Shown here: one piece after another, positions 26,390 to 32,472 of the stretch | How the letters are laid out: each line of letters begins with the position of its first letter | Numbering within the stretch: the first letter of the stretch is position 1 | From: an uncultured Sphingomonadaceae bacterium | Lineage (GTDB): Bacteria > Pseudomonadota > Alphaproteobacteria > Sphingomonadales > Sphingomonadaceae | DNA length: 64,000 nucleotides | NCBI GenBank assembly: GCA_947258815.1 | Contig: CAMYJW010000014.1 | Location: 62,001-126,000, forward strand | Direction of reading: 5' to 3' | The notes under the pieces: generated by a model | Told to the model about the DNA's origin: nothing | Database searches by the model: none | What the model saw: the letters and a program-made list of their open reading frames with translations, nothing else | Program-made: the position numbers and the translations under genes

Positions 26390-26576
26390 GGTATTCCCCC
26401 TTGTTCTTGATTGTGGATCAAAACGTGCGCCGCGCGCCCGGCAATGTCAAACGCGGGCGTGGAGGCATTTTCTGAAACGGCCTTTTTCAAAAACAGCGCA
26501 ATGCACACGCTGGCTGGTTGAGATGTTATAAGGGCGGCTTATATCCGCATGATCGGGTGTGACGAGGAGCAAGGTA
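26390..26576. other. Divergent intergenic region, MAPEG/polyamine operon
   Basis: 187 bases that should contain promoters for the MAPEG gene and the polyamine operon. TTATAA near 26527 is the only AT-rich -10-like element seen; no good -35 pairs with it. GAGGAG seven bases before the TTG at 26577 is a strong ribosome binding site and fixes the operon's first start. Confidence 0.5.
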
Positions 26577-27788
26577 TTGAGCAAGGTTCTGGTGATCGGC
26601 GCGGGCGGCGTCGGTTCGGTGGCGGTTCACAAGATGGCGGCCAACCCGGATATCTTTTCGGAAATTCACCTTGCCAGCCGCACCAGAGCCAAGTGCGATG
26701 CCATTGCCGCTTCGGTGAAACAGCGCACCGGGGTAAACGTGCCCACATACGCGCTTGATGCGGAAGATATTCCCGCGCTGGTTGCGCTGATCGAACAGAT
26801 CGGGCCGCAGCTCGTCGTCAATCTGGCGCTGCCTTATCAGGATCTGGCGATCATGGATGGCTGTCTGCGCACCGGCGTCGATTATCTCGATACCGCCAAT
26901 TATGAGCCCAAGGATGTCGCGAAGTTTGAATATAAGTGGCAGTGGGATCTGCACGATCGGTTTCGTGAAAAGGGCCTGATGGCGCTGCTTGGTTCGGGCT
27001 TCGATCCGGGTGTGACCAGCGTGTTTGCCATGTGGCTGAAGAAACATCGGCTCAAAACGATCCGCACGCTCGATATTCTAGATTGCAACGGCGGCGATCA
27101 CGGGCAGGCGTTTGCCACCAATTTCAACCCCGAAATCAACATTCGCGAAGTTACCGCGCCCGCGCGGCACTGGGAAAACAACCAGTGGATCGAAACACCT
27201 GCGATGAGCGTGAAGCAGGCCTTCGATTTTGAAGCGGTCGGCACGCGCAACATGTATCTGATGTATCATGAAGAGCTGGAAAGCCTTGCGAAGTTCGTCC
27301 CCGAGCTGGAGCGCGCGCGCTTCTGGATGACGTTCGGCGAGGAGTACATCAAACACCTCACCGTGCTCCAGAATGTCGGCATGACGCGGATCGATCCGGT
27401 GATCTACGAAGGGCGCGAAATCATCCCGCTGCAATTCCTGAAAGTCGTGCTGCCTGAGCCGTCCACACTTGGCCCGACGACCAAGGGCAAGACCAACATC
27501 GGCGTGATCGCGACCGGTGAGGCTTTGGATGGGAGCGGCGAAAAGACGTTCTACATCAAGAATATCTGCGATCACGAAGAGGCCTACGCGGAAACCGGAA
27601 ACCAGGCGGTGAGCTATACCACCGGCGTCCCGGCGATGATCGGATCGGCAATGATGCTGGGCGGCCAATGGCGAGGAAAGGGCGTTTTCAACATGGAAGA
27701 ATTCGATCCCGACCCGTTCATGGACATGCTGAATCAGCACGGCCTGCCGTGGACGGTTGAAGAACTGGACGGGCCGCTGGGGTTTTGA
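26577..27788 (+). CDS. Carboxynorspermidine/carboxyspermidine dehydrogenase (saccharopine dehydrogenase family)
   Basis: A 403-residue NADPH-dependent enzyme that condenses aspartate semialdehyde with a diamine (putrescine or diaminopropane) to carboxy(nor)spermidine. The N-terminal Rossmann motif is VLVIGAGGVGSVAVHKM; the rest follows the saccharopine dehydrogenase family (GVDYLDTANYEP, GSGFDPGVTSVFA). Assignment to the polyamine branch rests on the neighbouring decarboxylase. The track starts at GTG 26559, but GAGGAG and the usual MSKVLVIG beginning point to TTG 26577. It ends in a TTGA overlap with the GNAT gene. Confidence 0.92.
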   Translation: MSKVLVIGAGGVGSVAVHKMAANPDIFSEIHLASRTRAKCDAIAASVKQRTGVNVPTYALDAEDIPALVALIEQIGPQLVVNLALPYQDLAIMDGCLRTGVDYLDTANYEPKDVAKFEYKWQWDLHDRFREKGLMALLGSGFDPGVTSVFAMWLKKHRLKTIRTLDILDCNGGDHGQAFATNFNPEINIREVTAPARHWENNQWIETPAMSVKQAFDFEAVGTRNMYLMYHEELESLAKFVPELERARFWMTFGEEYIKHLTVLQNVGMTRIDPVIYEGREIIPLQFLKVVLPEPSTLGPTTKGKTNIGVIATGEALDGSGEKTFYIKNICDHEEAYAETGNQAVSYTTGVPAMIGSAMMLGGQWRGKGVFNMEEFDPDPFMDMLNQHGLPWTVEELDGPLGF

Positions 27789-28264
27789 TCCGGTCGGCAA
27801 CCCAGGCAGACAGGGCGTCGGTCTGGCGCATTCTGGAACCGGTGATCCGCGAGGGTGAGACTTATGCGCTTGATTCAGATATGGGCGAAGAAGATGCGCT
27901 CACTTACTGGATGAAGTCTCCCGATGCCTGCTTCGTTGCCGAGGACGACGGCCAGGTTGTGGGCACATATTATCTGCGCCCGAATCAGGGCGGTGGCGGC
28001 AGTCATATATGCAATTGTGGTTACATGGTTTCACCCGAAGCGCGCGGCCGCGGTACGGCGCGCGCCATGTGCGAGCATTCCCTCGCGCAGGCTCGCGAGT
28101 TCGGGTTTCGCGCGATGCAATTTAATTTCGTCGTCGCCTCGAATGCCGGTGCAATTGGGTTATGGCAGCGCTTGGGGTTCGAGGTCGTTGGTCGTATCCC
28201 CGATGCATTTGAGCACCCGAGGCTGGGCATGATTGACGCTTTGGTGATGCACAGGACACTTTGA
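27785..28264 (+). CDS. GNAT family N-acetyltransferase within the polyamine operon
   Basis: A 159-residue acetyl-CoA-dependent acetyltransferase. The acetyl-CoA loop is ARGRGTARAMCEH (about 85), followed by the typical motif B region NAGAIGLWQRLGFEVVGRIPDAF. It starts with TTG inside the stop of the dehydrogenase gene (TTGA) and ends in another TTGA with the decarboxylase gene. No other start is possible without losing the first beta strand. The embedding suggests a polyamine or intermediate as substrate, but this is inference; a RimI/PhnO-like function is also possible. Confidence 0.88.
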   Translation: MIRSATQADRASVWRILEPVIREGETYALDSDMGEEDALTYWMKSPDACFVAEDDGQVVGTYYLRPNQGGGGSHICNCGYMVSPEARGRGTARAMCEHSLAQAREFGFRAMQFNFVVASNAGAIGLWQRLGFEVVGRIPDAFEHPRLGMIDALVMHRTL

Positions 28265-29481
28265 CAGGTATGCAAACCAGAGCCGGCGATCCGGGCGCAT
28301 TCGCCCAATTCGATCTCAATCGCGTCGATTCCCCCGCGTTCGTTGTCGATGCCGCGAAGTTGCGGGAAAATTGCCGGATGCTGGCCGAAGTGGGCGAGGC
28401 TTCGGGCGCGAAAGTGCTGGCCGCGCTCAAGGCGTTTTCGATGTGGTCCACTGCGCCCACGATTGGCGAATATCTGGATGGCGTGTGCACATCCGGCCTG
28501 TGGGAAGCGCGGCTGGCGAGCGAGTTTTACGATGGCGAAATCTCAACCTACTGCCCGGCCTACAAGCCCGACGAGCTGGAAGAAATTTGCCGCCTTTCCG
28601 ATCATGTGATTTTCAATTCACCCGCCCAGATCGTGCGCGCAACCCAGATACTCGATCAGGCGCGGGCAACGGGCGGCGATATCGATATCGGCCTGCGGCT
28701 CAACCCGCTTCACGCCGAAGGCGAAGTGCCGCGGTATGATCCGGCAGCGCCGCATTCGCGCCTTGGCTTTCCCGTCGATCAGCTGGAGGATGAACACTTC
28801 GCGCTGATTGATGGCATTCACATCCATACGCTGTGCGAGCAGGATTTCCCCCCGCTTGAGCGTACGTGGGACAAGCTGTTCGATTATCTGGAGCCCTATT
28901 TCGGGCAGTTCAAATGGATCAACTTTGGCGGCGGGCATCACATCACCCGCGCGGATTATCAGCGCGACGATCTGATCCGGTTTATTGCCGATGTTGCCGA
29001 AGATACCGGCGCGCAGGTTTATATCGAGCCGGGAGAGGCCGTGGCGCTCGATGCCGGGATACTGGTGGGCACCGTGCTCGATACGCACTGGAACGGCATG
29101 CCGATCGCGATCACCGACGTTTCAGCAACCTGCCACATGCCCGATGTGCTGGAAGCACCCTATCGCCCCGCGATGCTGGGCGAGGTGCCGGTTGATGCCG
29201 AAATGCGCGATGCCAGCGATGACGATCCGCGCGGCGGAACGGTGCGGCTGGGCGGGCCATCATGTCTGGCGGGTGATGTGATCGGCGATTATCGCCTGCC
29301 GGTGGCGTGTGAGCCGGGCGCGCGGTTCGCATTTCTTGATCAGGCGCATTATTCGATGGTCAAGACAACCACGTTCAACGGTATGGCGCTGCCTTCGATC
29401 TGGCTGTGGGATTCAGAAACCGATGCGCTCGAATGCGTGAAGCGGTTTGACTATGCCGATTTCCGCGATCGGCTTGGCTGA
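28261..29481 (+). CDS. nspC: Carboxynorspermidine decarboxylase
   Basis: A PLP enzyme of the alanine-racemase fold (406 residues) that decarboxylates carboxy(nor)spermidine to (nor)spermidine. The PLP lysine is in VLAALKAFSMWS, with the phosphate-binding region NFGGGHHITR and the C-terminal active-site stretch RLGGPSCLAGDVIGDY. It follows the dehydrogenase and GNAT genes with a TTGA overlap; an ATG three codons later is an alternative start. Together with the decarboxylase at 31.3 kb it completes a putrescine to spermidine route. Confidence 0.94.
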   Translation: MTGMQTRAGDPGAFAQFDLNRVDSPAFVVDAAKLRENCRMLAEVGEASGAKVLAALKAFSMWSTAPTIGEYLDGVCTSGLWEARLASEFYDGEISTYCPAYKPDELEEICRLSDHVIFNSPAQIVRATQILDQARATGGDIDIGLRLNPLHAEGEVPRYDPAAPHSRLGFPVDQLEDEHFALIDGIHIHTLCEQDFPPLERTWDKLFDYLEPYFGQFKWINFGGGHHITRADYQRDDLIRFIADVAEDTGAQVYIEPGEAVALDAGILVGTVLDTHWNGMPIAITDVSATCHMPDVLEAPYRPAMLGEVPVDAEMRDASDDDPRGGTVRLGGPSCLAGDVIGDYRLPVACEPGARFAFLDQAHYSMVKTTTFNGMALPSIWLWDSETDALECVKRFDYADFRDRLG

Positions 29482-31158: not shown

Positions 31159-31186
31159 TTGCAGTTCGCGGCTGAAAAACTATATC
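31159..31186 (+). promoter_or_regulatory. Putative promoter of the ornithine decarboxylase leader
   Basis: TTGCAG and TATATC separated by 16 bases. Transcription would begin near 31193, producing a leader of about 77 bases that starts just before the GCTGCC stem described next. A small inverted repeat (CCGCG-GAACTA-CGCGG) upstream at about 31106-31121 may mark the end of lemA. Confidence 0.45.
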
Positions 31187-31192
31187 CCGCCC

Positions 31193-31269
31193 TCCGCTGC
31201 CCCAAGGGGACTTCCAAACCGTAAGGCAGCCTTTGCGTTGAACTGAGAAATTCCTGGGGGTCCCTTGAG
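31193..31269 (+). ncRNA. Structured 5' leader of ornithine decarboxylase (speF-type cis-regulatory RNA candidate)
   Basis: The leader contains GCTGCC (31196-31201) that pairs perfectly with GGCAGC (31225-31230). Inside that loop CAAGGGGAC (31203-31211) can instead pair, with one bulge, with GTCCCTTG (31260-31267), which lies between the GGGGG ribosome binding site and the TTG start. Two exclusive structures are therefore possible, one masking the start region. A leader RNA called speF is known upstream of ornithine decarboxylase genes in alphaproteobacteria; I infer a relation from gene, clade and position and have not matched it to the Rfam model. Confidence 0.5.
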
Positions 31270-32472
31270 TTGCACACATATCTTGATGCCCCGGCTGTAG
31301 TCCGCGCCACCGCGCCCGACGAACCCGTTATCCTCAATCGCCCGCACGCCGCCGCGCGCGCTGCCCGCTTCTTTGTAGAGAAGTTTCCGGGCCGCTCGCT
31401 CTATGCGGTAAAGGCCAACCCGTCGCCTGAACTTCTCCGCATTTTGTGGGATAGCGGGATCACCCATTTCGATGTGGCCTCGATAGCGGAGGTGCGGCTG
31501 GTGCGCGCGCTGCTGCCTGAAGCGACGCTGTGTTTCATGCATCCGGTGAAGACAGCCAGCGCGATTGGCGAGGCGTATCACGTTCATGGCGTGCGCACGT
31601 TCAGCCTCGATACGATTGAGGAACTGGACAAGATCGTTGCCGCGACATCGGATGCTTCGGGCAATCCGGCGCAGGATTTGCGCCTGTGTGTCCGGCTGCG
31701 CGTGTCATCGGAATATGCGGAGCTGAGCCTTGCTTCCAAGTTTGGCGTCGATCTGGCCGATGCCGCGCCGCTGCTTCAGGCGACCCGGCAGGTGGCAGAC
31801 TGGCTGGGCGTCTGTTTCCATGTCGGCAGTCAGGCGATGACGCCATTTGCCTATGTTCAGGCGATCGAACGGGTGCGCGCGGCGATTGTTGGTGCATCGG
31901 TTACGATCGATATCATCAATGTTGGTGGCGGGTTTCCATCGGTCTATCCCGGCATGGAGCCGCCACCGCTTGAAGACTATTTCGCCAGCATTTTCCGGGC
32001 ATCTGAATCGCTGCCGATTTCCTATTCTTCAGAGCTGTGGTGCGAGCCGGGCCGGGCGCTTTGCGCGGAATACAGCTCGCTTCTTGTTCGCGTTGAAAAG
32101 CGGCGCGGCAACGAGCTGTTCATCAACGATGGTGCCTATGGCGCGCTTTACGATGCCGCGCATGTTGGCTGGAACTATCCGTTGCGGTGCCTGAATGAGG
32201 GCCGCAGCGCCGAAGAAGAAGCGTTCGTCTTCTATGGACCGACGTGTGACGATGCCGATTACATGGAAGGTCCGTTTCTTCTGCCGGCCGACATTGCGCC
32301 GGGCGACTATATCGAGATCGGCATGCTGGGCGCCTATGGCGCGGCGATGCGCACGGCGTTCAATGGCTTTGGTGAAGGCGACGTGGCGATTGTCGGCGAT
32401 GAACCGATGGCCAGCCTGTTTACCGGCAGCCGGGAAATTCCGGCAAGCGACAACGTGGTAAGTCTGCGATAA
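31270..32472 (+). CDS. Ornithine decarboxylase-like PLP enzyme (fold III)
   Basis: A 400-residue alanine-racemase-fold decarboxylase forming putrescine from ornithine (lysine to cadaverine is a possible second activity). The PLP lysine is in SLYAVKANPSPELL, the phosphate loop in NVGGGFPSVYPG, and the C-terminal catalytic Cys/Asp region in YGPTCDDADYMEGPFLLP, as in eukaryote-type ODC. The start is TTG: the frame is open upstream only to a TAA at 31222 and contains no ATG or GTG. GGGGG precedes the start. Product putrescine would feed the 26.6-29.5 kb operon. Confidence 0.92.
   Translation: MHTYLDAPAVVRATAPDEPVILNRPHAAARAARFFVEKFPGRSLYAVKANPSPELLRILWDSGITHFDVASIAEVRLVRALLPEATLCFMHPVKTASAIGEAYHVHGVRTFSLDTIEELDKIVAATSDASGNPAQDLRLCVRLRVSSEYAELSLASKFGVDLADAAPLLQATRQVADWLGVCFHVGSQAMTPFAYVQAIERVRAAIVGASVTIDIINVGGGFPSVYPGMEPPPLEDYFASIFRASESLPISYSSELWCEPGRALCAEYSSLLVRVEKRRGNELFINDGAYGALYDAAHVGWNYPLRCLNEGRSAEEEAFVFYGPTCDDADYMEGPFLLPADIAPGDYIEIGMLGAYGAAMRTAFNGFGEGDVAIVGDEPMASLFTGSREIPASDNVVSLR

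Follow-up and report, generated by a model that had tools for sequence, protein, structure and literature searches.

What controls the ornithine decarboxylase gene of an uncultured Sphingomonadaceae bacterium, and what is the RNA that precedes it? The question arises in the window, the whole 64,000-nucleotide stretch of DNA analysed here, in which the gene is a 400-codon ORF starting at the TTG 31270-31272. Its protein (31270-32472) matches the Pfam families Orn_Arg_deC_N and Orn_DAP_Arg_deC, and its best solved relative is the lysine/ornithine decarboxylase 5gjm (E 2.3e-41). A sequence-only reading had proposed a structured cis-regulatory leader for this gene, with plausible translational control at the UUG start, and conservation has borne this out. 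The segments named there all lie where they were placed (TTGCAG, TATATC, GCTGCC, CAAGGGGAC at 31203-31211, GGCAGC, GTCCCTTG at 31260-31267 and the TTG at 31270). The reading did not mention the further TTG at 31265-31267, the start of a short and conserved upstream ORF (uORF) that runs in a different frame and begins five bases before the decarboxylase start. The parts of the locus, with the ribosome-binding site abbreviated as RBS, are the following.

31159-31186, plus strand: probable promoter TTGCAG-N16-TATATC (TTGCAG 31159-31164, TATATC 31181-31186), transcription start predicted at about 31192-31194
31194-31269, plus strand: odc1-type leader RNA domain and spacer, matched by covariance model R1
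31196-31201, plus strand: 5' arm GCUGCC (GCTGCC in DNA) of a 6-bp helix, by covariation; called the 'pseudoknot' helix in the published model
31207-31216, plus strand: anti-RBS strand GGGACUUCCA, 10 bp with 31255-31264
31217-31224, plus strand: strictly conserved loop AACCGUAA, by conservation among homologous leaders
31225-31230, plus strand: 3' arm GGCAGC of the 6-bp helix, by covariation
31255-31264, plus strand: RBS strand UGGGGGUCCC, sequestered by 31207-31216; GGGGG or GGAGG in relatives
31265-31300, plus strand: overlapping uORF, 11 codons and stop, by conserved stop, randomisation, codon bias and changes on the tree
31270-32472, plus strand: ornithine decarboxylase, type III PLP fold, UUG start, by Pfam and solved relatives

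The window on its own leaves room for chance, since shuffled sequences reach nested folds as good as that of 31190-31300 (z +1.2) and a generic consensus promoter scan found no promoter. With the shuffles equally good, nested fold stability was dropped as evidence. Chance complementarity is ruled out by conservation among homologues together with covariation. The decarboxylase gene is present in 34 of 36 other genomes of the genus, with proteins 75-81% identical, and the core is nearly identical, letter for letter, in all 29 congeneric leaders readable in full. Its consensus consists of a 5' block, CGCYGCCCCAWGGGGACUUCCA(AU)AACCGYAAGGCRGC, and a 3' block, UGGGGGUCCCUUG(A/C)(G/A)UUG, between which lies a variable spacer, often with a GGCC hairpin in it. 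In the putative promoter of these leaders, the TATA of the -10 element is invariant and kept in position, and TTGCAG or TTGCGA recurs upstream. The covariance model built from the 29 leaders (R1) matches contig C14 at 93194-93275 (E 8e-23), and finds the leader in 289 of 301 sampled family genomes and 94 of 96 genera, nearly always as a single copy. Five genomes of genus g172 (G211, G278, G331, G372 and G408) lack both the leader and the decarboxylase gene; without the enzyme, they must get putrescine by another route. A pattern scan of named genomes recovered the leader in Sphingomonas, Novosphingobium, Sphingopyxis, Sphingobium, Erythrobacter, Qipengyuania and others, the decarboxylase adjoining wherever the contig permitted checking. 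Matches of the scan outside the sphingomonads (e.g. Streptomyces, Planctomycetaceae), with no decarboxylase found downstream, were set aside as chance. Occurrence outside the order was likewise rejected, as a wider model (R2), searched over 385 genomes of the class, returned family members only, plus four marginal matches at chance expectation. As judged from this conservation, the leader is a real control element, almost universal in the sphingomonad family.

Structurally, the closing stem GCUGCC/GGCAGC, already proposed from the letters, shows clear covariation across orthologous leaders. Both sides are changed in 14 cells against 1.2 in shuffles, 97.5% of cells are paired, and its variants are GCCGCC/GGCGGC, GCAGCC/GGCUGC, GCUGCU/AGCAGU and GUUGCC/GGUGAC. 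This helix forms around the anti-RBS strand, which sits in its loop. The proposed pairing of a loop strand with the start region is also real, but its register had been misread: the strongest pairing is that of 31207-31216 with 31255-31264, and most relatives do not keep the outer CAA/UUG pairs of the earlier register (of about 172, 111 have CAU facing UUG and 44 have CAA). This RBS helix is paired in 96.2% of cells over 82 distinct leaders, and in 187 of 188 the predicted duplex is better than the one obtained after shuffling the 5' strand. Its changes (U-G to U-A in 27 cells, A-U to U-A in four) are mostly one-sided, because the RBS hardly varies. The two helices had been taken to be mutually exclusive, which is unsupported; they use different strands with no base in common, so a pseudoknot containing both is possible. 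In the divergent leaders L070, L072, L078, L079, L088, L090 and L094, the CCCC/GGGG hairpin that separates the two strands is lengthened.

The leader had been assigned to the speF family (RF00518), which likewise leads a COG0019-type ornithine decarboxylase gene in alphaproteobacteria (Corbino et al. 2005, PMC1273637). The same kind of gene in the same bacterial class speaks for this assignment. However, covariance-model searches with RF00518 found nothing in the window, whatever the threshold, nor in the leader at E <=10 or the genome at E <=0.001. The leader differs from speF in sequence, size and architecture, and the blocks GAGGGCUUUUUUGGUCUC...GUCACUGAAGAGGC of true RF00518 loci do not occur in it. 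Membership is refuted on these grounds, and we consider it next to inconceivable. One true RF00518 locus, L034, carries GGGGGAGGUCCCGAUG at the gene start, an RBS string as in odc1, possibly by coincidence. By gene, taxon and architecture, the window leader is the odc1 (uORF-25-1) motif, already described in 2021 with 272 examples, twin UUG starts, an 11-residue peptide and the RBS within a stem (Brewer et al., PMC8632094). The window copy shows no essential difference from it. Both lie directly upstream of an ornithine decarboxylase gene in the same taxon, place the RBS on the 3' side (right shoulder) of the main stem (31207-31216/31255-31264), pair 5'-end bases with a loop as a pseudoknot (31196-31201/31225-31230), and have two UUG starts with two bases between them and a uORF of 11 amino acids. 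No family of Rfam release 15 matches the window leader, odc1 going undetected; in the other papers searched, the name 'odc1 motif' does not occur, and a 2024 survey of 50 genomes makes no reference to the element. SAM-II (metA, RF00521) is similar as a small pseudoknot directly after the transcription start in alphaproteobacteria, but it gives no Rfam match here, precedes a different gene, lacks a uORF and has a known ligand. The enterobacterial leader peptides speFL and mdtU are similar in that a short upstream ORF controls polyamine genes, whereas mdtU has 34 codons and does not overlap the main start, and RNA-level and Rho effects are involved.

The overlapping uORF reads UUG AGU UGC ACA CAU AUC UUG AUG CCC CGG CUG UAG. 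Across 190 non-identical homologues, an NTG stands in every one five bases before the decarboxylase start and again at that second start, and the uORF stops exactly at codon 12 in 188 (176 TAG, 8 TGA and 4 TAA). Randomisation of the synonymous codons of the decarboxylase gave 15.6 codon-12 stops on average and 26 at most, against the 188 seen, and led us to expect early uORF stops in 10.7 sequences, against 0 observed. Valine at the site of the uORF stop is encoded by GTA in 132 of 132 cases, compared with 3.8% elsewhere in the gene. On the enzyme tree, the stop changed type 5 times, the straddling codon changed 15 times and its amino acid 8 times, and no sequence counted had lost the stop. 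The alternative that a DNA word GTAG is conserved, rather than a stop codon, was rejected because TGA or TAA can stand in place of TAG at codon 12. Strong conservation of the peptide, as raw entropy indicated, is mostly explained by relatedness; a tree-based count leaves a moderate slow-down, and the peptide letters appear only moderately constrained. Peptide length was stated to be invariant in PMC8632094, which our wider sample contradicts with rare exceptions, the two sequences without a codon-12 stop having uORFs of 16 (L083) and 22 codons (L089).

Relatives vary in ways that the main text of PMC8632094 does not report: some have uORFs of 6, 16 or 22 codons, some have AUG/AUG or GUG/UUG as their twin starts, and others have an extended inner hairpin or a leader without the RNA domain. 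In L082 and L091, both starts are AUG (AUGAGAUG) and not UUG, and the leader of L151, from Hankyongella ginsenosidimutans, is the same as that of L091. This joint change suggests that the strengths of the two starts are balanced. L240 and L241, from two genera of a sister family, have the same architecture in other letters, with UUGCCGA...UCGGCAA around GGGCCUUCGC and with GUGGAGGUCYCAUGAAUG. Their AUGAAUG opens a 6-codon uORF ending in UAG (MNGLLY, MNGLLP), in the other alternative frame. The anti-RBS strand is altered or lost in L067, L085 and L086, with RBS, twin starts and gene kept. In L085 its place is taken by UUGGGGGUCCCAA, which repeats the RBS sequence and can fold back on itself rather than pair with the RBS. 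Over the ~60-110 bases before the decarboxylase start, L089 and L092 have lost the RNA domain, although the twin UUG starts and the RBS string GGGGGUCYC remain; the codon-12 stop is retained in L092 and not in L089. As the gene is retained in all five of these leaders, the RNA domain is not indispensable.

The explanation that we regard as very probable is that this member of odc1 controls the translation of ornithine decarboxylase by hiding a shared RBS and by letting ribosomes begin at either of two starts, the uORF serving as a ribosome sink. The nascent leader would fold into a pseudoknot in which GCUGCC/GGCAGC encloses GGGACUUCCA, and this strand would pair with the RBS UGGGGGUCCC. A single RBS would feed both start codons. 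Initiation at the first UUG would yield an 11-residue dead-end peptide, and the ribosomes concerned would be lost to the enzyme because they terminate within the decarboxylase gene; initiation at the second UUG would yield the enzyme. The RNA fold would set how open the RBS is, and probably the choice of start too, and enzyme output would be lowered when product is plentiful. Conservation of the sequence, the helices, the twin starts and the uORF stop, together with the gene association, is the observed part of the model; we infer polyamine state as the signal, as well as which state is on and which is off. In an E. coli reporter with the Sphingomonas echinoides copy, both starts were used, the uORF about three times more (PMC8632094). 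In the same study, the main ORF was no longer expressed after mutation of conserved loop bases immediately ahead of the pseudoknot strand, in the loop that is 31217-31224 here, and mutating the start codon that corresponds to the decarboxylase start largely eliminated reporter expression. Reporter output also differed between rich and minimal medium, but its overall level was modest. This modest level, the mostly one-sided covariation of the RBS helix, and the relatives with an altered or lost anti-RBS strand or without the RNA domain count against the explanation.

Two further readings are refinements of this main explanation and do not exclude it. The pseudoknot may be the aptamer of a metabolite-binding riboswitch, in which putrescine, spermidine, ornithine or a related compound would lock the RBS shut upon binding, a possibility also raised in PMC8632094. 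We entertain it tentatively. It is consistent with the compactness of the pseudoknot, with unpaired loop bases by the RBS that are strictly conserved, with an architecture like that of small translational riboswitches and with a committed biosynthetic step; on the other hand, a conserved uORF would be superfluous for a plain riboswitch, some relatives have lost the domain, and the single gene association offers no independent pointer to a ligand. The exact conservation of uORF length and stop fits with a nascent-peptide or termination sensor, in which the ribosome would pause on the uORF or at its stop when polyamine or ornithine is high. Paused at the stop, its P site would lie 25 nt past the decarboxylase start, and initiation there would be blocked. 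Third codon positions of the gene are slower inside the uORF (about 26 changes per site against 41 downstream, with counts this low in just 5 of 332 windows), rare codons are retained (CCT 69 times, for example, against 6% elsewhere), and speFL and mdtU are precedents (PMC7815308). However, the moderate constraint on the peptide letters and the relatives with 6, 16 or 22 codons count against it, and we judge it rather unlikely.

The twin-start uORF, and not an aptamer, could also be the core of the device, with one RBS serving a choice between enzyme and decoy, slow termination in high polyamine blocking the enzyme start, a uORF length set for the slow-terminating ribosome to do so, and an RNA domain that would only tune; taken jointly, these claims strike us as doubtful. 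A zero-frame stop codon near the start of the gene recalls antizyme: ribosomes starting at the first UUG would translate the 11-codon ORF as the 5' part of the decarboxylase and shift frame to reach the rest. Such frameshifting was rejected and is very improbable, as no conserved slippery codon precedes the stop, the NTG of the second start is universal among the homologues, the starts become ATG jointly in two sequences, and the published start-codon mutation largely eliminated expression (PMC8632094).

The main explanation, translational control by a shared RBS and two starts, concerns a locus with a polyamine gene neighbourhood. About 3 kb upstream lie a carboxynorspermidine synthase-like gene (26559-27788) and a carboxynorspermidine decarboxylase-like gene (28261-29481), both matches being under the curated cut-offs of their models. 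Genes of this type near that for ornithine decarboxylase suggest a carboxyspermidine route. The family assignment of the leader is corrected from speF to odc1, which nearly all sphingomonads keep and which is published but unexplained. Its natural variants, with AUG/AUG twins, changed uORF lengths or a lost RNA domain, distinguish between the aptamer and uORF models. In fact, the variants found among the homologues make testable a question that was left open in 2021.
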